This document shows positions 7,245-63,857 of a stretch of DNA of 64,000 bases, in pieces. Where the stretch lies: the NCBI GenBank assembly GCA_015231795.1, contig JADGAX010000002.1:434001-498000 (forward strand), read 5' to 3'. Position 1 is the first letter of the stretch; the number at the start of each line of letters is the position of its first letter. Source of the DNA: Alphaproteobacteria bacterium (GTDB lineage: Bacteria > Pseudomonadota > Alphaproteobacteria > Rhodospirillales > WMHbin7). Under the pieces are notes generated by a model. The model was given only the letters and a program-made list of their open reading frames with translations, searched no databases and was not told where the DNA came from. A program made the translations under genes and the position numbers.

Positions 7245-10200
7245 ATGATCCAGTTCGAGAGCATCCGGCTCACGGGCTTCAAGTCCTTTGTCGATCCGTC
7301 CGAGCTTGTGATCGAGCCGGGACTGACCGGCGTGGTCGGCCCCAACGGATGCGGCAAATCGAATTTGGTCGAGGCGTTGCGCTGGGCGATGGGCGAGACA
7401 TCGGCCAAGCAGATGCGCGGCGCCGACATGGACGACGTGATTTTCGGCGGCACCCAGTCGCGACCGGCGCGCAACATCGCGGAAGTGCTGATCACGCTCG
7501 ACAATCGCGCCCGCGTGGCGCCCGCCATGTTCAATGAGCATGACCGGCTGGAAGTCCTGCGCCGCATCGAGCGTGGCCAGGGGTCGCATTACAAGGTCAA
7601 TGGGCGCGAAGTGCGCGCCCGCGACGTGGCGCTTTTGTTCGCCGACGCCGCCACAGGCGCCCGCTCGACGGCCATGGTCAGCCAGGGGCGCATCGGCGCC
7701 ATCATCAACGCCAAGCCCGCCGACCGCCGCTCGCTTCTGGAAGAGGCGGCGGGCATTTCGGGCCTGCATACGCGCAGGCACGAAGCGGAAATCCGCTTAA
7801 AGGCCGCCGAAGCCAATCTGTCGCGCCTGGACGACGTGCTGGTCACTTTGGAAGCGCAGATGCAAAGCCTGTCCAAACAGGCCAAGCAAGCGTCGCGCTA
7901 CCGCACCATCAACGACCAAATCCGCTCGGTGGAAGCCAGGCTCTTGCATCTGCGCTGGCAGCAGGCGATCGACTCGCTCGACGCCGCCGAGGCGGGCATG
8001 CGCGACATCGAGGTCGAGGTGGGCGCGCGCACCGGCGAGGCCGCCCAGGCCGCCACCCGTCAGGCCGAAGCCGCCGCCTCTCTGCCCCAGCTTCGTCAGA
8101 CCGAGGCCGAGGCTTCGGCGCGTTTCCAGCGCCTGCTGGTGGCGGGCGAACAATTGGACGCCGAGGAAAAGCGCGTTGCCGAAGCCAGGGCGGAAATTTC
8201 AAGGCGACTGTTGCAGATTGCCGAAGACCGGGCGCGCGAAGAGGCCAGAACGCAAGACGCCGCCAGCGCGCTGGAGCGCTTGTCGGGCGAGCGGCAAAAC
8301 CTGATTCAGGCAGGCGAGGGCGAGGAACAGGCCCAGGCCAAGGCCAAGGAGCAATTGTCCCAGGCGGCCCAGGTCGTGAACGCCACCGAGTCGGAATTGT
8401 CGCAACTGACCGAACGGGTCGCCGCCCAGGAAGCCAGACGCGCCGCCCTGGAACGCCGCAAGAGCGAAATCTCGGAACGTTTGGCCCGTCTGAAGGCCAG
8501 GGCCGAGGAATTGGGCCGCCAGATTGCCGCCTCGGAAGCTGAGGCGGCGCAAGATTCGGAAGTGATCGCCGCCGAAGCGCGCATTGCTGCGGCGGCAGGC
8601 GCGCTCGACGAGGCGCGTGGCCAGTTGGAAGGCAGCGAGAAGCTGCTGGAACAAACCAGCCAAGCGCGCAGTCAGGCCAGAACCCGCCTGCAGGACGAAG
8701 AAGCCCAGATGAGCCGCCTGAAGGCCGAGGCCGAGGGCTTGAAGGCTTTGCTGTCGGCGGGCAAGCGCGAAGGCACGCCCATCCTTGACGCCGTTTCCGT
8801 GGCGCCGGGCTATGAAGCTGCCCTGGGCGCCGCGCTGGGCGAGGATTTGGAAGCGCCCGCCGATGACAGCTCGCCCCATCGCTGGAGCCGCCTTGATCCT
8901 TACGCCGAACCGCAGCCCTTGCCTGTCGGCGTCCGGCCTTTGTCCGAACTGGTCAAAGCTCCGCCCGAATTGGCTAGGCGCCTAAGCCAGACCGGCCTGA
9001 CCGAAAACGGCGCGCATCTGGCGGCTTCGCTCAAGCCCGGTCAACGCTTGGTCAGTGCCGAGGGGGCGCTTTGGCGCTGGGACGGTTTCGTGATCGCGGC
9101 GGGTGCGCCCAGCGCCGCCGCCACAAGGCTGCAAACGCGCAATCGTTTGGCCGAGGTGGATGGGCTGATGCAGTCCGCCCAGGCCGCGCTGGCCAGCGCG
9201 CAAAGCGAGGACAAAAGTGCTCAGGACGCGGCGCAGGCCGCCCAGGACGCGGCCCGGCTGGCTCGCGAGCGGGTGCGCCACGCCGAAGCCGAACAACAAA
9301 ACGCGACCAGGGCGCAGGCCCAGTTGATGGAACGCGCCCAGGCCAGGGCCAGCAAGCTGGCTGGCCTGAAGGCGCAGGCAAGCCAGATCGAGGGCGATGT
9401 GGCCGAAGCCGAAAGCCAACTGGACGAGGCGACCAAGCAGGTGGCGGAATTGCCCGATCCCTCGACCGGACGCCAGGAAGCGGCCAGTCTGCGCGACCGT
9501 TTGGGGGCCGAGCGGTCCGCCTTGCTGGAAGCCAGGGCGGCGCATGACCGTTTGATGCGCGAAGCGGGCGAGCGTCAGCGCCGTCTGGAAAGCGTCAATC
9601 TGGACATCGAATCTTGGAAAAGCCGCGAGGCCGAGGCTTTGGGCCACCGTCAGGCCCTCGACGTTCGTCAGGCCGAAGCGGCTGGTGAGGAAGCTAGGCT
9701 GGCCGCGCTGCCCGGCGAGATTGCCGAAAAGCGCGAGCGTTTGCTGACCGAAAAGCAAACGGCGGAAACCGTCCGGCGCGAGGCGGCCGATGCGCTGACC
9801 GTGGCCGAGACGGCCTTGCGCGAAGCCGACAAGGCCCTGAAGACCGCCGAGTCGGAATTGGCCCGCGTGCGAGAAGAGCGCGTGCGCAAGGAAGCCGCCA
9901 TCGAGCAAGGCAAGCAGACCTGCCGCACGGTGGCCGAGCGGATCGCCGAGCGTCTGGAATGCCGTCCCGAGCAGATTGCCGAAGTGGCCGACATCGCGCC
10001 CGACGAAAAACTGCCCGAACCCGACGAACTGGATCGCAAGCTGGAGCGACTGGTGCGCGAGCGCGACGGCATGGGGCCGGTCAATCTGCGCGCCGAAACC
10101 GAATCGGAAGAGCTGGGGCTGCAAATCAATTCGCTGAAGACCGAGCGCGAAGACCTGATCAACGCCATCGCAAGGCTGCGCCAGGGTATTTCGGAACTTA

Positions 10201-20803: not shown

Positions 20804-21541
20804 ATGGATACTAAGAAAACCGTCATCGTCACCGGGGCCAGCCAAGGCATCGGTCACGCCATTGCGGCGCGCTTCTTGCTCGAAGATTGGCGCGTCATCA
20901 CCTGTTCGCGCCAGGACGTGCCCCCGCATTGCAAGATGAATCCCAACTGGGCGCACCATATCGTGACCGATCTGGTCAAGGACGAGGACGTCGCCCGTTT
21001 CATCGAAGCCGCCAACGCTATTCTGGACGGCGGCCCCTTGCACGCCTTGATCAACAATGCGGGCGTCTCGCCCAAGACCAGCTACAAGGAACGTTTGGGC
21101 ATTTTGAACGGCCCCATCCAGGGCTGGCGCGACGTGTTCGACCTTAATTTCTTCGCACCACTGAAACTGGCTCGCGGCTTCGCTTCGGCGCTCAATCGCG
21201 GCAAGGGGGCGATCGTCAACATCACCTCGATCGCCGGGCATTACGTGCATCCCTTCGCAGGCTCGGCCTATTCCACCTCGAAAGCGGCGCTGTCAGGATT
21301 GACCCGCGAAATGGCGGTCGAGTTCGCCCAGCTTGGCGTGCGCGTCAATGCGCTGGCGCCGGGCGAAATCAAGACCGGCATGATCTCGCCCGACTACGAG
21401 GCCTTCATTCCGCGCATTCCCCTGGAACGCATGGGATCGACCGACGACGTGGCGGGCGTGGCCTTCAGGCTTTGCTCGGACGATTTCGCCTATGTCACGG
21501 GCACCGAGGTCTTCGTGACCGGCGGCCAGCATTTGTTGTAG
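20804..21541 (+). CDS. Short-chain dehydrogenase/reductase
   Basis: A 245-residue NAD(P)-dependent oxidoreductase of unknown substrate. The Rossmann motif is TGASQGIG near the N-terminus. NNAG follows at about residue 82. The catalytic Ser is in NITSIAG, and the Tyr and Lys are in YSTSKAALSG. The C-terminal VTGTEVFVTGGQ is typical of the classical family. It probably shares a transcript with the upstream UspA gene. It converges with the methyltransferase gene across a short hairpin-forming repeat. Confidence 0.9.
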   Translation: MDTKKTVIVTGASQGIGHAIAARFLLEDWRVITCSRQDVPPHCKMNPNWAHHIVTDLVKDEDVARFIEAANAILDGGPLHALINNAGVSPKTSYKERLGILNGPIQGWRDVFDLNFFAPLKLARGFASALNRGKGAIVNITSIAGHYVHPFAGSAYSTSKAALSGLTREMAVEFAQLGVRVNALAPGEIKTGMISPDYEAFIPRIPLERMGSTDDVAGVAFRLCSDDFAYVTGTEVFVTGGQHLL

Positions 21542-21556
21542 GGAAGCCCTCAGCGG

Positions 21557-21606
21557 TCAGCCGTCAGCTTTCAGATAAAAAGGCTGATGGCTGAATGCTG
21601 AAAGCT
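21557..21606. repeat. Hairpin-forming intergenic repeat
   Basis: TCAGCCGTCAGC (21557-21568) pairs with GCTGATGGCTGA (21583-21594) at 11 of 12 positions. AGCTTTCAG (21566-21574) is also the exact complement of CTGAAAGCT (21598-21606). The 68-base gap separates two converging genes and could stop transcription. A similar TCAGCCGTC string lies after trmB at about 57160. Confidence 0.55.
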
Positions 21607-21609
21607 ATT

Positions 21610-22167
21610 TCAAACCCGATGCGGCCCGTAGGTCTTGGCGGCGCAGAGGCGCTGGATGACGGCGGGGCCTTTGCTGCGCGTCACGACGCCCTGTTCGAAG
21701 GCGATGACCGACAATTTGCCATGCACGATGTTCAGCAATTCGTCGGGTTGCAGCAGATGGGCTGGATTGCGCGGGCTGGTCAGCGCATAGGTTTCGTTGC
21801 CATGGGCGAAGGTTTCGTAGATCAGAACGCCGTCTTCGGCCAAGGCGTCGATCAGATGCGCAAAAAGCGGGCGAAAAAGGTAATTGGTGACCACGATGGC
21901 CTGGAATTTGCGGCCCTCGAGCGGCCAGGGCGCGCCATTCTCAAGATCGGCCTTGACGATTTCGAAGCCCGGGGCCGGGGTCAGCAGGCTGGTGTCGCGA
22001 TCAACAGCCGTCACCTTGTTGCCTTGCCGCAAGAACAGGCGGCTGTGCCGCCCGGCGCCCGCCGCTAGGTCCAGCACCTCGCCCTCTGGTGGAATCAAAG
22101 GCGCGAAGCGTTCCACCCAGGCTGAGGGGGCATCGGGTCCGGGCGTGACAATATGTTTGCAGCGCAT
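21610..22167 (-). CDS. Class I SAM-dependent methyltransferase
   Basis: A 185-residue protein. The SAM-binding loop is LDLAAGAGRHSRLFL, followed by the acidic end of strand 2 (VTAVDRD) and a motif IV-like VVTNYLFRPLF. It resembles the small tellurite-resistance/TehB-like methyltransferase group, but the substrate cannot be told. It stands alone on the minus strand, converging with the SDR gene and divergent from the DUF1178 gene, 44 bases apart. Confidence 0.85.
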   Translation of the reverse strand: MRCKHIVTPGPDAPSAWVERFAPLIPPEGEVLDLAAGAGRHSRLFLRQGNKVTAVDRDTSLLTPAPGFEIVKADLENGAPWPLEGRKFQAIVVTNYLFRPLFAHLIDALAEDGVLIYETFAHGNETYALTSPRNPAHLLQPDELLNIVHGKLSVIAFEQGVVTRSKGPAVIQRLCAAKTYGPHRV

Positions 22168-38938: not shown

Positions 38939-39639
38939 TGCGGGCCATCGCCCTTGCCGCTGGCCTTGGGCTGCGGCTGCGCCCGCTGACGCTGACGACG
39001 CCCAAGCCGCTGGTCAGCGTGGCGGGCAAGACGCTGCTTGATCACGCGCTGGACAAGATGGCGGCATTGGGCGTCGAAGACTGCGTCGTCAACATGCATC
39101 ATCTGGCCGACAAGATCGCTTCGCATGTGGCGGGGCGGCGCAAGCCCAAGATAACTTTGTCGGACGAGACCGGTCAGCTTTTGGAAACCGGCGGCGGCAT
39201 CGCCAAAGCGCTGTCCTTCTTTGAAGGACAGGCCTTCATTGCCGCCAATGCCGACATTTTATGGACCGATGCGCCCGCAGCGCCCCAAGCCCTCGAACGT
39301 TTGCGCATCGCTTGGGACGAAGACAAGATGGACGGGCTGCTGCTGCTTGTCCCCAGGCCGGGGGCCTTCGGCTATGAAGGTGCAGGCGATTTCTTCATAG
39401 AGGCGGATCAGCGCCTGCGCAGAAAGCAGCCCGGCCAGCAAGCGCCCTTTGTTTTCGCGGGCGTGCAAATCTTGCATCCGAACCTGTTCGACGAGGCACC
39501 CGCTGGCGCCTTCTCGCTTAACCTTCTGTATGACAAGGCGCTGGCCAGGGGCCGTCTGTTCGGCCTGATCCATGATGGCGGCTGGTACCATATCGGAACG
39601 CCCGAGGCATTGGCCCAGGCGCAAGAGCTGCTGGGCTAA
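38935..39639 (+). CDS. murU: N-acetylmuramate alpha-1-phosphate uridylyltransferase MurU
   Basis: Makes UDP-MurNAc from the AmgK product, returning wall sugars to peptidoglycan synthesis. The 234 residues carry the nucleotidyltransferase signature AIALAAGLGLRLRPLT with PKPLVSVAGKTLLDH, then ANADILW with the metal-binding Asp and GWYHIGTPEALAQA. The start ATG at 38935 overlaps the amgK stop (ATGA); a second ATG follows directly. addB starts 3 bases after the stop. Confidence 0.93.
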   Translation: MMRAIALAAGLGLRLRPLTLTTPKPLVSVAGKTLLDHALDKMAALGVEDCVVNMHHLADKIASHVAGRRKPKITLSDETGQLLETGGGIAKALSFFEGQAFIAANADILWTDAPAAPQALERLRIAWDEDKMDGLLLLVPRPGAFGYEGAGDFFIEADQRLRRKQPGQQAPFVFAGVQILHPNLFDEAPAGAFSLNLLYDKALARGRLFGLIHDGGWYHIGTPEALAQAQELLG

Positions 39640-51628: not shown

Positions 51629-52516
51629 ATGGACGATGGCAGTAGTCGGTTCTTCGGCTTTTTCGGACGCTGGCTGAAGGAGTTCCAGAAGGGAAAGCAA
51701 GGCGAATCATCGACCGGGCTTGAGACTCTGGAAGAACTGATCGAGGAGCGCGAGGAAAACGAAGAGCCGTTGGACGCGCACGAACGCCGCTTGCTGGGCA
51801 ATGTGCTGCGCCTGCGCGACGTGACCGCCTATGACGTGATGGTCCCCAGGGCCGACATCGTGGGCGTGCCCTCGACGCTGACCCTTCCCGAACTGCTGGA
51901 AGTTTTCACCCGCGAGGGTCATTCGCGCATGCCGGTCTATCGCGGCACCATGGACGATGCGGTCGGCATGGTTCACATCAAGGACGTTCTGGCCGCCGAA
52001 ATTTCGGGCCAGCCCTTTCAACTGGGCCGCATCATCCGTCGCGTACTGTTCGTGGCCCCCTCGATGCGCGTCCTCGACCTACTGCTGGAAATGCGCATCA
52101 AGCGCATGCATCTGGCCCTGGTGGTCGATGAATATGGCGGCATCGACGGGCTGATCACCATCGAAGACTTGGTCGAGCAGATCGTGGGCGAGATCGAGGA
52201 CGAGCATGACGAAATGAACGCGCCCGACATCGTGCGCAGGCCCGACGGCCATCTGGATGCCGACGCAAGGGCCACTGTGGAAGAGTTGGAAGAATTGGTC
52301 GGCCCCCTTCTAAGCCAGGAAGAGCGCGACGAGATCGACACGTTGGGCGGCCTGGTGGTGGCGCTGGCGGGTCATGTGCCCGCACGCGGCGAATTGATCC
52401 GCCACCAGTCGGGCATGGAATTCGAAGTGCTGGAAGCCGATCCCAGGCGCGTGCGTCGCCTGCGCATCCGAAGGCCGACAGCCGACGCGGACGCGCCGCA
52501 GGCCGAGGTTTCGTGA
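51629..52516 (+). CDS. CorC/TlyC-type CBS-domain protein
   Basis: A 295-residue cytoplasmic protein with two CBS domains (DVMVPRADIVGVPSTLTL, then LVVDEYGGIDGLITIEDLVE) and a C-terminal CorC_HlyC domain (LGGLVVALAGHVPARGEL). CorC has been linked to Mg2+ and Co2+ efflux. The haemolysin label TlyC of some annotations is not supported by context. It lacks the DUF21 membrane domain of larger homologues. Conserved between ybeY and lnt. The stop overlaps the lnt start. Confidence 0.92.
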   Translation: MDDGSSRFFGFFGRWLKEFQKGKQGESSTGLETLEELIEEREENEEPLDAHERRLLGNVLRLRDVTAYDVMVPRADIVGVPSTLTLPELLEVFTREGHSRMPVYRGTMDDAVGMVHIKDVLAAEISGQPFQLGRIIRRVLFVAPSMRVLDLLLEMRIKRMHLALVVDEYGGIDGLITIEDLVEQIVGEIEDEHDEMNAPDIVRRPDGHLDADARATVEELEELVGPLLSQEERDEIDTLGGLVVALAGHVPARGELIRHQSGMEFEVLEADPRRVRRLRIRRPTADADAPQAEVS

Positions 52517-54072
52517 CCCCGTTCCTCGCCAAATTGGAAGCCTTGTCGGGTTGGCGTCGTCGCGGCTTTCTTGCCGCTTTGGGCGGGTTTGCCGCGCTGG
52601 CCTTGCCACCCATCTATTTTTTGCCTGTCCTTGGCTTGTCCTTTGCGGGTCTTGCCTTGCTGTTAAGCGGGGCGGCCAGCCGCAAAAGCGCCTTCGCTAC
52701 CGGCTGGTGGTTCGGGCTGGGCTTTTTTACCGCCGGACTGTACTGGATTTCCAACGCCCTGCTGGTCGATGCCGCCCGTTTTGCCTGGTTCATTCCCTTC
52801 TCCCTTTTCGGCCTGTCGGGCGTGCTGGCGATCTTTTGCGGCTTGGCCACGCTTCTGTCTTGGCGGATTTGCCGCAAGGGCGTGGGCGGCGCGCTGGCCC
52901 TGGCCGCCGCCTGGGTCTTGCTGGAATGGCTGCGCAGCTTCGTTTTCACCGGATTTCCCTGGAATCTGATCGCCAGCATCTGGGTGCCGGTCTTGCCGGT
53001 GCTGCAATCCGAAGCCTGGATTGGTCCCTATGGGCTGGGTTTCCTGACACTTTGGGCCGCCATCGTCTGGCCTCTGATTTTTCGTGATAGATCGGCGCGC
53101 CATCGCTTGCTGGCGGGCCTGCCATTTCTGATTTTGTTGCTGCTGGGAATGGGCGGCTTGATGCGCCTTCAGGGCGGCGACATCGTCATGACCGACGATG
53201 TGCGCCTGCGCCTCGTGCAGCCCAATATTCCCCAAACCCTGAAATGGAAGAACGAGCTGCGCTTCGCGCATCTCTTGAAGCTGATCGAGATGAGCCAAGT
53301 AGCCAGCGACGAGCCGCCCACGCATGTGATCTGGGCGGAAACCGCCGTGCCCTATATATTGGATCACGATGTGCAGGCTAGGCTGGCGGTGGCCAAGGCG
53401 GTTCCCGCGAATGGCTTGGTGATTACCGGCGCGGTGCGCACCACCGAGCCGGGTTTGGAACCCTACCAGATATGGAACAGCCTGCTGGCGATTGACGAAT
53501 CCGGCCTGATCCGGGGCGTCTTCGACAAATTCCATCTGGTGCCCTTTGGCGAATACATGCCGCTGAAATCGATCCTGCCCTTGAAGAAAATCACCGAGGG
53601 CGCCACCGATTTTTCGCCCGGCCCCGGCCCGCTGACCATCGCCCTGCCGGGTCTGCCTCCCGTCGGGCCTTTGATCTGCTACGAGGTCATCTTCCCCCAT
53701 GCGGTGGCCGAACCCGGCAAACGCCCAGATTGGCTGCTCAATCTCACCAATGACAGCTGGTACGGGATAAGCACCGGTCCTCACCAGCATTTTGCAACCG
53801 CCCGCATGCGCGCGGTCGAAGAGGGGCTGCCGCTCGTTCGAGTTGCAAACAGCGGCATCTCGGGCGTCATCGACCCCTATGGCCGCGTAGTGGCCGAATT
53901 GGGACTTGGGCAAGAAGGCATCTTGGATAGCCGCCTTCCCAAGCCATTGAATGAGGCAACGATTTACGCCCGGACAGGAGACGTGCCCAGCATTGGAGTT
54001 CTTATTCTTTTACTTATTGTCTTGAAATTCATGGTTTGTCACACGGGATTTTCCTCAATACGATACTCGTGA
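52513..54072 (+). CDS. lnt: Apolipoprotein N-acyltransferase Lnt
   Basis: Adds the third acyl chain to the N-terminal Cys of lipoproteins such as MlaA, in the inner membrane. The 519 residues have about six N-terminal helices and a nitrilase domain with the catalytic triad Glu in VIWAETAVPYIL, Lys in FDKFHLVPFGEYMP and Cys in PLICYEVIFPHAV. The start is GTG at 52513 with a GTGA overlap to corC. A C-terminal helix ends the protein. Last gene of the miaB run. Confidence 0.96.
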   Translation: MTPFLAKLEALSGWRRRGFLAALGGFAALALPPIYFLPVLGLSFAGLALLLSGAASRKSAFATGWWFGLGFFTAGLYWISNALLVDAARFAWFIPFSLFGLSGVLAIFCGLATLLSWRICRKGVGGALALAAAWVLLEWLRSFVFTGFPWNLIASIWVPVLPVLQSEAWIGPYGLGFLTLWAAIVWPLIFRDRSARHRLLAGLPFLILLLLGMGGLMRLQGGDIVMTDDVRLRLVQPNIPQTLKWKNELRFAHLLKLIEMSQVASDEPPTHVIWAETAVPYILDHDVQARLAVAKAVPANGLVITGAVRTTEPGLEPYQIWNSLLAIDESGLIRGVFDKFHLVPFGEYMPLKSILPLKKITEGATDFSPGPGPLTIALPGLPPVGPLICYEVIFPHAVAEPGKRPDWLLNLTNDSWYGISTGPHQHFATARMRAVEEGLPLVRVANSGISGVIDPYGRVVAELGLGQEGILDSRLPKPLNEATIYARTGDVPSIGVLILLLIVLKFMVCHTGFSSIRYS

Positions 54073-54077
54073 AGCGG

Positions 54078-54100
54078 TTGACTTACATATTTGCGTATGT
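54078..54100 (+). promoter_or_regulatory. Possible promoter and operator of the first XRE gene
   Basis: TTGACT (54078-54083) could be a -35 box. It is followed by ACATA (54085-54089) and TATGT (54096-54100), exact complements 6 bases apart. The region between lnt and the regulator is AT-rich compared with its surroundings. No convincing -10 box is seen. Autoregulation by the XRE protein is possible. Confidence 0.35.
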
Positions 54101-54181
54101 CTTACTTTCGGAAAGCCGACGACAACTAGCGTTGGGACAGATCGGCTAACCTTGCGGATCAACACGAAAGAACATAATAAA

Positions 54182-54682
54182 ATGGCTAAAAGTCCCACTC
54201 GGAATAAGGGTCCCGTTTCCCGTAAGTCCAGCCGCGGCCGGACGGCGACGGGCAAGCCGAACCCCATCGACGTGCATGTCGGCAACCGCGTTCGCCTGCG
54301 TCGGACGTTGCTGGGCATGAGCCAGGAGAAGCTCGGCGAAGCGATCGGGCTGACCTTCCAACAGGTGCAGAAGTACGAGCGCGGCGCCAACCGCGTCGGC
54401 GCATCGCGCCTGTACGACCTGTCGCAGGTTCTGGATGTGCCGGTGTCGTATTTCTTTGACGACATGCCTGACGAAGTCACCCGCTCAAGCCCGCGCCAGA
54501 TTCTCGGCATGTCCGAAGATCCGGCCGCCGATTTCGAGCACGACCCTATGACCAAGCGCGAAACGCTGGAACTGGTGCGCGCCTATTACCGCGTGACCAA
54601 TCCCGCCGTGCGCCGTCGCCTGTTCGAATTGGCCAAGTCGCTGGCCAATGTCGAAAGCGAAGAAGAAGTCAGCGAAGACTGA
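54182..54682 (+). CDS. XRE-family helix-turn-helix regulator (first of a pair)
   Basis: A 166-residue DNA-binding protein. A basic N-terminal tail (KSSRGRTATGKPNP) leads into the HTH: VGNRVRLRRTLLGMSQEKL, then AIGLTFQQVQKYERGANRV and LSQVLDVPVSYFFDDM. A helical C-terminus ends in RRRLFELAKSLANVESEEE. This type is highly conserved in alphaproteobacteria with no clear general role. It lies between lnt and metK. The C-terminal Arg-Arg...Leu-Ala-Lys-Ser-Leu segment recurs in the next gene, showing the two are paralogues. Confidence 0.9.
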   Translation: MAKSPTRNKGPVSRKSSRGRTATGKPNPIDVHVGNRVRLRRTLLGMSQEKLGEAIGLTFQQVQKYERGANRVGASRLYDLSQVLDVPVSYFFDDMPDEVTRSSPRQILGMSEDPAADFEHDPMTKRETLELVRAYYRVTNPAVRRRLFELAKSLANVESEEEVSED

Positions 54683-54749
54683 CGGCAACCATTGCGTGAA
54701 GTAATCGCGTATTATTTTTCGCGGTACGCGTAACAACTGCTAGACGCCA

Positions 54750-54793
54750 AAAACTCCATGTGTAACACTTGTAAAGTGTTAGCATGGAGTTTT
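54750..54793 (+). promoter_or_regulatory. Long hairpin covering the ribosome binding site of the second XRE gene
   Basis: AAAACTCCATG (54750-54760) pairs fully with CATGGAGTTTT (54783-54793), and TAACACTT (54763-54770) pairs with AAGTGTTA (54774-54781), with a small bulge and a 3-base loop. In total 19 base pairs. The right arm contains GGAG (54786-54789), the only Shine-Dalgarno match for the TTG start at 54797. It may be a translational switch, a DNA operator or a weak terminator (TTTT follows). Confidence 0.7.
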
Positions 54794-54796
54794 ACC

Positions 54797-55177
54797 TTGT
54801 CGCGTCCTCAGCCCTACGATTCATCTTCGCCCGCCCCCTCCCAGGATTTTCTTGCCCAGCTTGGACAACGACTTGAAAATCTGCGCCAAGCCAGCGGGTT
54901 CGAACGCGCGCAACTGGCAAAATGCGTAGGAATCACGGGCGGCAGGCTGAAGAGGATCGAAGAAGGCCAGGCGCGTCTCGAAGCCAGCCTGCTCTATGCG
55001 CTTCTGCAGGCGATGAACGTAAAAGTAGCCGACTTCTTCGATGGGGCCGCCCAAGCCGGGCCGTCGCCGCTTGATCCTGAGGCGCAAGAACTGATGCGCC
55101 TGTTCAGCACCATTCCGGACGCTGGCATCCGCCGCTCGATCTTGAAACTGGCCAAGTCTTTGTCGGAAAAACCTTGA
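54797..55177 (+). CDS. XRE-family helix-turn-helix regulator (second of a pair)
   Basis: A 126-residue DNA-binding protein with TTG as the likely start, 7 bases after GGAG; no ATG is available in frame near it. The HTH runs LGQRLENLRQASGFERAQL, CVGITGGRLKRIEEGQARLE and LLQAMNVKVADFFDG. The C-terminus (IRRSILKLAKSLSEKP) resembles that of the upstream regulator. It is more diverged in the recognition helix, so it may bind another site. It ends 87 bases before metK and might regulate it; no motif proves this. Confidence 0.82.
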   Translation: MSRPQPYDSSSPAPSQDFLAQLGQRLENLRQASGFERAQLAKCVGITGGRLKRIEEGQARLEASLLYALLQAMNVKVADFFDGAAQAGPSPLDPEAQELMRLFSTIPDAGIRRSILKLAKSLSEKP

Positions 55178-55264: not shown

Positions 55265-56437
55265 GTGTCCAAGGCCGACTTTCTGTTCACCAGCGAATCC
55301 GTTTCCGAAGGCCATCCCGACAAGGTCTGTGACCGCATTTCGGACGCCGTCGTCGACATCTTTCTGAGCGCCGACCCGTACGCCCGAGTCGCCTGCGAGA
55401 CGCTGTGCACCACCAACCGGGTTGTCCTGGCCGGCGAAGTGCGCGGACCCGCCTCGATCACGACGCAGCTGATCGAAGACACGACGCGCCAAGCCATCCG
55501 CGACATCGGCTACGAGCAGGACGGCTTCCATTGGAAGAACGCCAAGGTCGAGATTCTGCTGCACTCGCAATCGGCGGACATCGCGGTCGGCGTCGACGCT
55601 GCGGGCAACAAGGACGAGGGCGCTGGCGACCAGGGCATCATGTTCGGCTATGCCTGCACCGAAACGCCGGTTCTGATGCCTGCCCCCATTTATTACGCGC
55701 ATGAAATTCTGCGTTCGCTGGCCGAAGCGCGCCATTCGGGGGCCACCACCAAGCTGGGTCCCGACGCCAAGAGCCAAGTGACGCTGCAATATGTGAACGG
55801 CAAGCCGGTGCGCGCCACGTCGGTCGTGGTCTCGACCCAGCACACCGAAGACGTCAACCAGGAAGAAGTGCGCGAGATCGTGCGCCCGCACGTGCTGAAC
55901 GTTCTGCCCAAGGGCTGGATGTGCGACGAGCCGCATTTCTACGTCAATCCCACCGGTCGTTTCGTTATTGGCGGTCCCGACGGCGACGCCGGCCTGACCG
56001 GTCGCAAGATCATCGTCGATACTTACGGCGGCGCGGCCCCGCATGGCGGCGGCGCTTTCTCGGGCAAGGACCCGACCAAGGTCGACCGCTCGGCCGCCTA
56101 TGCGTCGCGCTATCTGGCCAAGAACGTGGTGGCCGCCGGTCTGGCCGACCGCTGCGTGATCCAGCTGTCTTACGCCATCGGCGTTTCGAAGCCCCTGTCG
56201 GTTTACATCGACACTTTCGGCACCGGAAAAGTGGACGAGGACAAGCTGTCCAACGTTCTGCAAGATCTGGTGAACTTAAGCCCGCGCGGCATTCGCGAGC
56301 ATCTGGGCCTGAACAAGCCCATCTATGCCCGCACCGCCTCTTACGGCCATTTCGGGCGCAACCCCGATGCCGACGGCGGCTTCTCGTGGGAAAAGACCGA
56401 TCTGGTCGATCAGCTCAAGAAAGCCTTTGGCGCCTGA
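55265..56437 (+). CDS. metK: S-adenosylmethionine synthetase MetK
   Basis: Makes SAM from methionine and ATP. The 390 residues contain [20 protein letters not shown] with the ATP-contacting His, the hexapeptide GAGDQG and the P-loop-like [16 protein letters not shown]. Complete for the family. The start is GTG at 55265, 6 bases after AAGGAG; an in-frame ATG at 55247 has no ribosome site. No SAM riboswitch motif is seen in the 87-base leader. It is functionally tied to metF/metH at the left end of the window. Confidence 0.97.
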
Positions 56438-57169: not shown

Positions 57170-57350
57170 GCGCGCCCGGCGCCGAGGGTCGGCATCACGC
57201 GGGCAAGGCCCGCGCGGCGGGTTCCACCCCGCCGAGAGCCAAGCGCCCAAGGGGCGCGCCCGGCGTCTGAGGGACGGCATCACGCGGGCAAGGCCCGCGC
57301 GGCGGGTTCCACCCCGCCGAGAGCCAAGCGCCCAAGGGGCGCGCCCGGCG
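57170..57350. repeat. Tandem hairpin-rich repeat, period about 85 bases
   Basis: Two full copies (from 57170 and 57254) and the start of a third (57339-57350) each begin GCGCGCCCGGCG. Each copy can fold three hairpins: GCGGGC-AAG-GCCCGC, GGCGGG around TTCCAC with CCCGCC, and GCGCCC-AAG-GGGCGC. Copies differ by a few bases near the 5' end. It fills the gap between convergent trmB and ptsI and may act as a transcription barrier or a REP-type element. It begins after a TCAGCCGTC string shared with the repeat at 21557. Confidence 0.85.
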
Positions 57351-57364
57351 CCTGAGGGGCAGCA

Positions 57365-59134
57365 TTAAGAAGCATCCGCCTCGTCGTTGAAACTGTCAAT
57401 CAGGGCCGATATGCGTGCCGAATCCACCTGATCCATGATGCTGCGCGCCCTGCGGATGGCGCCGCTCAGATTCATGGCGCGGATGCGCTGCTTGACGCGG
57501 CCCAGATGGATGGGGGCCATCGACAATTCGCGGATACCCAATCCCAGCAGCAGCCCGGTCAAGCGGGCCTCGCCCGCCATTTCGCCGCAGACCGACACGG
57601 GAATGCGCGCCCGCAAAGCCGCCTCGGTGGCGAATTGAATCATGCGCAACACGGCGGGGTGCAGCGGATTGTAAAGACTGGCCACCTGCTCGTCCGAACG
57701 GTCGATGGCCAGCGTGTACATGGTCAGGTCGTTGGTGCCGATGGCGAAAAAATCGGCATGCGTGGCCAGGGCGTCGGCGGTGATGGCGGCGCCCGGAATT
57801 TCGATCATGATGCCCAGCGGCGGCAGCGGGTCAGCGATCGGCACCCGCTTGCGCTTCAATTTCTTGGCGATGCGCGTCATCGCCTCGCGCACGCAGGTCA
57901 CTTCGGCCACGGTCATGACCATGGGCAACAGAATGCGGATCGGTCCATGCGCCCCGGCGCGAAGGCAAGCCGCCAGTTGGGGTTCCAGCAGTTCCGGATG
58001 CTTGAGCGACAGGCGAATGGCGCGCAAGCCCAAGGCGGGGTTGAGGCCCGGCGAATCGAGATCGGGCAGTTTCTCGCTGCCCGCGTCCAGGGTTCTGATG
58101 GTGACGGGTCGGCCCTTCATCGCCTTGACGATGCCCGAAAGCGCTTGATACTGCTCGTCCTCGTTGGGCAAGTCGCTGCGGTTCATGAACAAGAACTCGC
58201 TGCGCAGCAGGCCAACCCCCATGGCGCCCGCGTTCAAAACGCCGTCGACTTCTCCGGGCAGTTCGATATTGGCCATCAGGGAAATCGTCTCGCCGTCCTT
58301 GGTCACGGCAGGCAGGCTCGACAGGCCTTCAAGCTGGCGGCGGATGCGCAGATGCTGGGCGCGCAGAGCGCGGTAAGCCGACAAAGTCGCAGCGGAAGGA
58401 TTGATGATGACCTGGCCAAGCCCGCCGTCGATGATGACGGTCTCGCCGCCGCGCAACCCATCGAGCAAGCCGGAAACGCCCAACACCGATGGAATGCCCA
58501 AGGAACGGGCCATGATGGCGGTGTGGCTTTCCATGCCGCCCGCTTCCGTCGCCAATCCAACAACCAGCTTGGGATCGAGAAGGGCGGTGTCGGCGGGCGA
58601 CAATTCATCGGCCAGCACGGCTGAATTCTTGTTCAATTGCTCGAAGGGCCGCCAGGCGGATTTGTTGAGGGCGCGGATCAGGCGCGATCCCACTTCGCTG
58701 ATGTCGGCGGCCCTGGCCGCCAGATAGGAATCATCGACCGCCGCCAGCCCCTCGACGATCTCGCCGATCTCGCGCATGACGGCGGATTCGGCATTGATAC
58801 GTTCTTGCTTGATGCGCGATTCAACGCCGCGCACCAAGCGCGACCCCTTCAGCATTTGAAGATAGGCTTCCAAAAGGTAACCCATTTCCTCGGCCGCCGC
58901 CGAAGGCAATTTCTTGGCCTTGTGCAGCAAGTCGTCGACCTGTCGTCCGGCCTGGCTGGCCGCCTGCTGAAAGCGCGCCAGTTCGTCGTCAATGCGAGAA
59001 GCGGGAATGCGGTATTCGGGCACATGCACTTGGCCGTGCTCGTGGCGATGCGCGACGCCAACCGCAATGCCGGGAGCTGCGGCCAGACCTTCTAAGATGC
59101 GCTCCTTGCCCGATACGGGCTGGCTAGTCTTCAT
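57365..59134 (-). CDS. ptsI: Phosphoenolpyruvate-protein phosphotransferase (enzyme I)
   Basis: First component of the regulatory PTS: takes phosphate from PEP to its active His and passes it to HPr. The 589 residues show the phospho-His204 in GGMESHTAIMARSLGI and the PEP site with LLRSEFLFMNR, IRTLDAGSEK and VCGEMAGEA. The N-terminal GAF domain of EI-Ntr (PtsP) is absent, so it is EI-like, though it works in a regulatory set without sugar permeases here. The ATG at 59134 lies 11 bases inside the HPr gene. It ends next to the tandem repeat. Confidence 0.94.
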   Translation of the reverse strand: MKTSQPVSGKERILEGLAAAPGIAVGVAHRHEHGQVHVPEYRIPASRIDDELARFQQAASQAGRQVDDLLHKAKKLPSAAAEEMGYLLEAYLQMLKGSRLVRGVESRIKQERINAESAVMREIGEIVEGLAAVDDSYLAARAADISEVGSRLIRALNKSAWRPFEQLNKNSAVLADELSPADTALLDPKLVVGLATEAGGMESHTAIMARSLGIPSVLGVSGLLDGLRGGETVIIDGGLGQVIINPSAATLSAYRALRAQHLRIRRQLEGLSSLPAVTKDGETISLMANIELPGEVDGVLNAGAMGVGLLRSEFLFMNRSDLPNEDEQYQALSGIVKAMKGRPVTIRTLDAGSEKLPDLDSPGLNPALGLRAIRLSLKHPELLEPQLAACLRAGAHGPIRILLPMVMTVAEVTCVREAMTRIAKKLKRKRVPIADPLPPLGIMIEIPGAAITADALATHADFFAIGTNDLTMYTLAIDRSDEQVASLYNPLHPAVLRMIQFATEAALRARIPVSVCGEMAGEARLTGLLLGLGIRELSMAPIHLGRVKQRIRAMNLSGAIRRARSIMDQVDSARISALIDSFNDEADAS

Positions 59135-63542: not shown

Positions 63543-63611
63543 ACGTTTGCCCCAATCGGTATTACCGAAAGCAATTGACGAGATGTTTGTGGCGAAATTA
63601 TAGTGGGACTT

Positions 63612-63812
63612 GACGGTTTCCGTGAGGGGATAAAATGTCCCGCCCCGGAAAAAGGGAACTTAGGTGCCGCGATTTCGCATCGCCAAGCCTGGGCTGCCCC
63701 CGCAACTGTAAGCGGCGAGCCGGTCTTTCGACAACGCCACTGAGGCCAAAACGCCTTGGGAAGGCAGAAAGATCAGCCAAGACCCGCGAGCCAGGAAACC
63801 TGCCGTCATCCG
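63612..63812 (+). promoter_or_regulatory. Cobalamin (B12) riboswitch
   Basis: The aptamer core is recognisable: GGGAAC then TTAGGTGCC (63654-63668 region), GGGCTGCCCCCGCAACTGTA (63691-63710), GCGGCGAGCC, CACTG, GGGAAGGC (63759-63766) and the B12 box AGCCAGGAAACCTGCC (63789-63804). These blocks are in the right order and spacing. It controls the downstream cbiM gene, lowering expression when adenosylcobalamin is abundant. Exact ends are estimated. Confidence 0.95.
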
Positions 63813-63857
63813 TTGCCTGTGCGTGCCTTTGGGGCGGGGTGTCCCCTTGGACGTGGC

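Follow-up and report, generated by a model that had tools for sequence, protein, structure and literature searches.

A conserved hairpin over the ribosome site of a PraR-like XRE paralog: a candidate translation-silencing leader in one alphaproteobacterial genus

How is a regulator gene expressed if its only Shine-Dalgarno (SD) sequence is locked in a stable stem directly before a TTG start codon? This question is raised by a pair of XRE genes in the window, that is, the whole 64,000-nucleotide stretch analysed here. Pfam profile search gives the gene order lnt - XRE1 - XRE2 - metK, with a gap of 114 bases between the two XRE genes:

52513-54072, + strand: lnt (apolipoprotein N-acyltransferase), the upstream neighbour; Pfam LNT_N 4.9e-25, CN_hydrolase 1.4e-23
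54071-54108, + strand: fully conserved box directly before XRE1, TTGAC with an ACATA-N6-TATGT dyad
54182-54682, + strand: XRE1, a PraR/PhrR/CdxA-type regulator; HTH_3 1.4e-12 (read from 54152)
54797-55177, + strand: XRE2, the second XRE gene; 126 aa read from a TTG start, HTH_31 9.4e-10
55265-56437, + strand: metK (S-adenosylmethionine synthetase), the downstream neighbour; Pfam S-AdoMet_synt N/M/C, start inferred to be GTG from alignment with relatives

An XRE gene standing between lnt and metK is the mark of the PraR/PhrR/CdxA group, and XRE1 is such a gene. In 26 of the 30 XRE1 loci compared across the order, the downstream flank includes metK; three have another XRE gene after XRE1 (two loci of the genus and one in G027, from another family). 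In G004, which represents another genus of the same family, metK directly follows XRE1 without XRE2; this XRE1-metK gap (L053 1300-1500, minus strand) has a GC-rich hairpin, different from the one described below, followed by a few Ts.

The genus sample comprised four genomes, and the locus is present in three of them (G000, G003, and G001), the XRE1 copy of G001 being 98% identical to that of the window at the amino acid level. The fourth, G002 (81% complete), yielded no close XRE1: the best match (6.5e-25) has 47% identity, and this assembly seems to lack the locus. The genus is probably the magnetotactic Ca. Magneticavibrio, from which strain LM-1 is named Ca. Magneticavibrio boulderlitore in the cited part of PMC12724286.

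Both genes evolve under constraint, which is far stronger for XRE1 (dN/dS 0.06 against L004 and 0.02 against L005) than for XRE2 (0.14 and 0.24, respectively, from the HTH onward). Judged from these ratios, XRE2 is a real gene under purifying selection, a diverged and fast-evolving PraR-like paralog of which XRE1 is the conserved partner. The box at 54071-54108 is identical in the three genomes at 38 of 38 positions, while the rest of the XRE1 leader agrees at 36 of 73 (window against L005); it probably holds the promoter of XRE1, overlapped by an operator.

The start of XRE2 is supported by its relatives. Since the frame 5' of the TTG is closed by in-frame stops in L004 and L005 (TGA in both), the in-frame ATG at 54758 cannot be a common start and was rejected. 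Moreover, TTG-Ser-Arg is kept in both loci with synonymous changes, which supports the TTG as the XRE2 start. The gap before it contains the following elements:

54692-54733, + strand: leader domain I of the RNAalifold consensus; helix 54692-54698/54727-54733 and inner helix 54704-54709/54720-54725 with an AT-rich loop
54743-54801, + strand: predicted closing helix, 54743-54746/54798-54801, four pairs including two bases of the TTG start
54750-54793, + strand: hairpin hiding the SD; outer arms 54750-54761/54782-54793, inner arms 54763-54770/54774-54781
54786-54789, + strand: Shine-Dalgarno GGAG within the right arm, 7 bases 5' of the TTG at 54797-54799

The sequence-only reading had described perfectly paired arms at 54750-54760/54783-54793 and 54763-54770/54774-54781, with the only SD of the TTG-started XRE gene in the right arm. 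Both descriptions are borne out, and a U54761.G54782 wobble extends the outer arms, giving 20 pairs interrupted only by the bulged G54762 and closed by a 3-base loop (54771-54773). The segment 54740-54810 folds to -29.2 kcal/mol (z -6.0, reached by 0 of 200 shuffles), and the 60 bases 5' of the XRE2 start have a z of -6.2 (0/1000). In the fold model, the probability that the GGAG bases are unpaired at 37 C is about 1e-5 to 3e-4.

How unusual is such a stem in this DNA? Our comparison set consisted of the 200 start codons of the window, on both strands, that are preceded by GGAG, AGGA, or GAGG. The XRE2 SD stem is the longest among them (11 perfect pairs); next come two starts with 9 pairs, which share one palindrome inside 39206-39239, and all others have at most 6. 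The cost of opening the SD is also highest at XRE2, 14.8 kcal/mol against a median of 2.7. By shuffle z, the hairpin is the third-lowest locus on the + strand in a ranking of 6394 60-base segments, with z computed only for those whose fold reached -20 kcal/mol or lower (2376 segments); the low z of the second-ranked locus, at 9701, disappeared on closer folding. The hairpin occurs once in its own genome, and a repeat or mobile element was thus rejected.

Some other features of the window may be recorded here. An intergenic stem-loop at 21541-21611 (-39.7 kcal/mol, z -6.8), flanked by convergent ORFs resembling, by eye, a short-chain dehydrogenase and a methyltransferase, is probably a bidirectional terminator or a dispersed repeat. 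A tandem array at 57170-57365 (period 85, 2.3 copies, 94% matches) lies between genes that look by eye like trmB and ptsP. The only Rfam 15 family reaching its gathering score in the window is a cobalamin riboswitch at 63597-63821 (102 bits), far from XRE2.

The structure is retained in the three genomes of the genus that have the locus. All three leaders fold with z of -6.1 to -7.3 (each 0/1000 shuffles), opening the GGAG costs 14.8, 14.9, and 15.6 kcal/mol, and the spacing of 7 between SD and TTG is constant. Between the window and L005, the hairpin core is identical at 34 of 38 positions, compared with 45 of 67 in the intergenic DNA 5' of it and 242 of 381 in XRE2. Fifteen of the 20 hairpin pairs are invariant across the three genomes, and two inner-stem pairs are broken in L005.

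An alignment of this leader in search of covarying bases had been proposed as a check, and in the three genomes it revealed three doubly changed pairs in the hairpin and three more in the inner helix of domain I. Those of the hairpin are neighbours in the lower stem, where AAA/UUU is replaced by UCG/CGA (A-U, A-U, A-U to U-A, C-G, G-C); three such pairs were matched by 17 of 500 shuffles. For the whole leader, tested without the weak outermost helix of the RNAalifold consensus, six double-changed pairs were reached by 1 of 500 shuffles, and slid structures gave 0 or 1. These counts come from three sequences only and from a structure derived from the same alignment, with five of the six pairs contributed by L005. 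Besides, DNA template switching at an inverted repeat can produce neighbouring double changes without selection. The closing helix is invariant in the three genomes, and conservation is therefore silent about it.

Could the hairpin have been kept by descent or chance, without any function? The genomes are few, and by sequence the leader belongs to one genus only. This explanation seems very improbable to us, given the 0/1000 shuffles, the double changes, and a core retained at an XRE2 dS of about 1.3 (window against L005).

The same symmetry may be read at the DNA level. The inner TAACACTT-N3-AAGTGTTA dyad, 19 bp long, presumably matches XRE operators in size and symmetry, and the palindrome, mainly this inner part, might be a private auto-regulatory operator of XRE2 or XRE1, with RNA pairing as a by-product. 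Symmetric substitutions may follow the evolution of a bound dimer, and XRE2 is evolving rapidly; a precedent is given in the cited passages of PMC4149787, where the praR promoter is bound by PraR. However, the PraR operator consensus quoted from PMC5527310, CAAC-N5-GTTG, is absent from the hairpin at up to 2 mismatches (the best site has 3), and the published PraR operator was rejected on this ground. The inner dyad has no further copy at up to 2 mismatches in G000 and G003, and a single 2-mismatch match was found in G001. L005 has two inner changes, which are asymmetric, and a length of 44 bases, a bulge away from the centre, and the position of the SD suit RNA better. The suggestion that the palindrome could serve as an operator for the XRE proteins thus gained no support, in view of the missing PraR consensus and of the absence of a second dyad copy in this genome, and we regard a DNA operator as unlikely.

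Since the hairpin lies 67 bases 3' of XRE1, it might instead be a 3' end element of that gene, which stops transcription or an exonuclease or is cut by RNase III, with any effect on XRE2 being secondary. In the window and in L004, the A-tract and T-tract arms resemble those of bidirectional terminators. But the terminator scan was negative for the hairpin, the four Ts lie within the stem, and L005 has TCGAGCC in place of a T-run; the negative scan and the L005 sequence make an intrinsic terminator unlikely. In addition, the G004 gap, which has no XRE2, carries its own hairpin of another, GC-rich kind. A 3' end element of any of these types appears rather improbable.

RNA thermometers commonly hold the SD of a regulator gene paired in a hairpin, and the pairing is itself borne out by folding. 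Yet GGAG faces a perfect CUCC, and in the three genus leaders the fold model keeps the SD closed over 20-55 C, with an unpaired probability of at most about 1e-3 at 55 C. Opening by temperature alone, one of the triggers first considered, is not what these values predict: a simple RNA thermometer is unlikely as a design, and that this hairpin acts as one at growth temperatures is hardly credible.

To see how far the leader extends beyond the genus, we searched 317 genomes of the order with a covariance model built from it. The three genomes that matched are all members of the genus, so by sequence the leader is restricted to it. G027, of another family, was not matched by the model; nevertheless, its lnt-XRE1 pair is followed by a second XRE gene with a TTG start. 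Here GGAG lies 9 bases 5' of the TTG in a 9-pair stem, CTCCCTGCC/GGCAGGGAG, together with an inner 7-pair stem (z -4.7, 1/1000 shuffles). Opening this SD costs 10.9 kcal/mol, and its bases reach an unpaired probability of up to 0.06 at 55 C. The gene is not followed by metK, and in the tree, where branches are long, it falls outside the XRE2 group of the genus. This look-alike may reflect convergence, distant descent, or chance.

Tandem XRE genes are not always arranged in this way. In genus g22 of the order, the second copy is strongly diverged (L097, L098, L103, L104, and L105), and none of the five second genes has an SD-preceded start; by this test, they therefore lack such a hairpin. The tandem pairs of G048 and G061 have weak SDs only and no comparable stem. 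Among 63 folded leaders of XRE relatives, inspection revealed the SD-hairpin design in just four (the three of the genus and that of G027), in a survey where starts were picked automatically, several being doubtful, and where the edge loci L021, L029, L032, and L034 are unreliable. In L020 (G042), AGGAGG is located inside a smaller hairpin of 7-8 pairs 5' of an ATG.

The reading that we favour, and consider probable though far from certain, is that the XRE1-XRE2 leader silences translation: its 3' hairpin pairs the sole ribosome site of XRE2, so that by default very little XRE2 is produced. Computation provides a conserved hairpin with doubly changed pairs, an SD buried in it, and a TTG start, and on this basis the following sequence of events may be proposed. 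XRE2 would be produced from a transcript carrying the whole leader; this RNA would fold, and the hairpin would close the ribosome site and repress XRE2 translation in the cell. With its sole ribosome site base-paired, XRE2 should be scarce unless the hairpin is opened, possibly by an RNA-binding protein, by an antisense or small RNA, or during a brief window of RNA folding. The likely use of such an arrangement would be to keep a PraR-like paralog scarce and conditional beside XRE1.

The claim that the hairpin sequesters the SD is strengthened by the opening energy, the three-genome conservation, and the double changes of the lower stem; in favour of silencing we also count the folding z, the constant spacing, the selection on XRE2, and the G027 look-alike. 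Against it we count that only three related sequences are available, that two pairs are broken in L005, that neither the tree nor the covariance model joins G027 to the genus, and that the g22 pairs have no hairpin.

A more elaborate version, which we hold only tentatively and think doubtful, treats the 114-base leader as a two-domain RNA switch absent from Rfam, where domain I or a bound factor would control the SD hairpin and activate XRE2, and where the design in G027 would have arisen separately. Searched against Rfam 15, the leader reached the gathering score of no family, the best sub-threshold match being a microRNA model (E 1.7); a riboswitch linked to the adjoining metK was rejected since there is no Rfam match. 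Thus the leader has no recognisable aptamer or known family by which a riboswitch is assigned, though it may hold a new aptamer.

Leaders that sequester the SD, including riboswitch expression platforms, translational operators, and thermometers, are of a well-known kind. As in these, the SD of XRE2 pairs with an upstream anti-SD arm immediately 5' of the start codon, it lies in a stable stem near the start, and the pairing has been kept in evolution across the three sequences. Unlike them, the XRE2 leader has no recognised aptamer, trigger, or Rfam family, its opening cost is very high, and by sequence it is limited to one genus. The silencing leader is accordingly a candidate new case of an otherwise ordinary device, and a full-text literature search brought up nothing on an SD hairpin preceding a paralog of the PraR type. 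Rhizobium rosR, compared by the title of PMC5748706, is likewise a regulator gene with a long regulatory upstream region, which affects mRNA stability; it is another gene from another clade.

As described in portions of PMC4149787, PMC5527310, and PMC10688885, regulators of the PraR/PhrR/CdxA type in Alphaproteobacteria govern traits of biofilm, symbiosis, and phage. Paralogs are frequent, RL0149 and the Caulobacter set being known examples, and protein anti-repressors such as CinS are known as well. XRE1 shares with them the HTH and the lnt-XRE-metK neighbourhood, and the difference is XRE2, a diverged second gene 5' of metK. In these portions, control is transcriptional or exerted via protein partners, whereas that of XRE2 would be exerted by an SD hairpin. 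If this is true, a very tight and conserved translational lock on a paralog adds an RNA layer to the PraR/PhrR/CdxA network, and the XRE2 leader offers a small testable RNA for a search for the opener.
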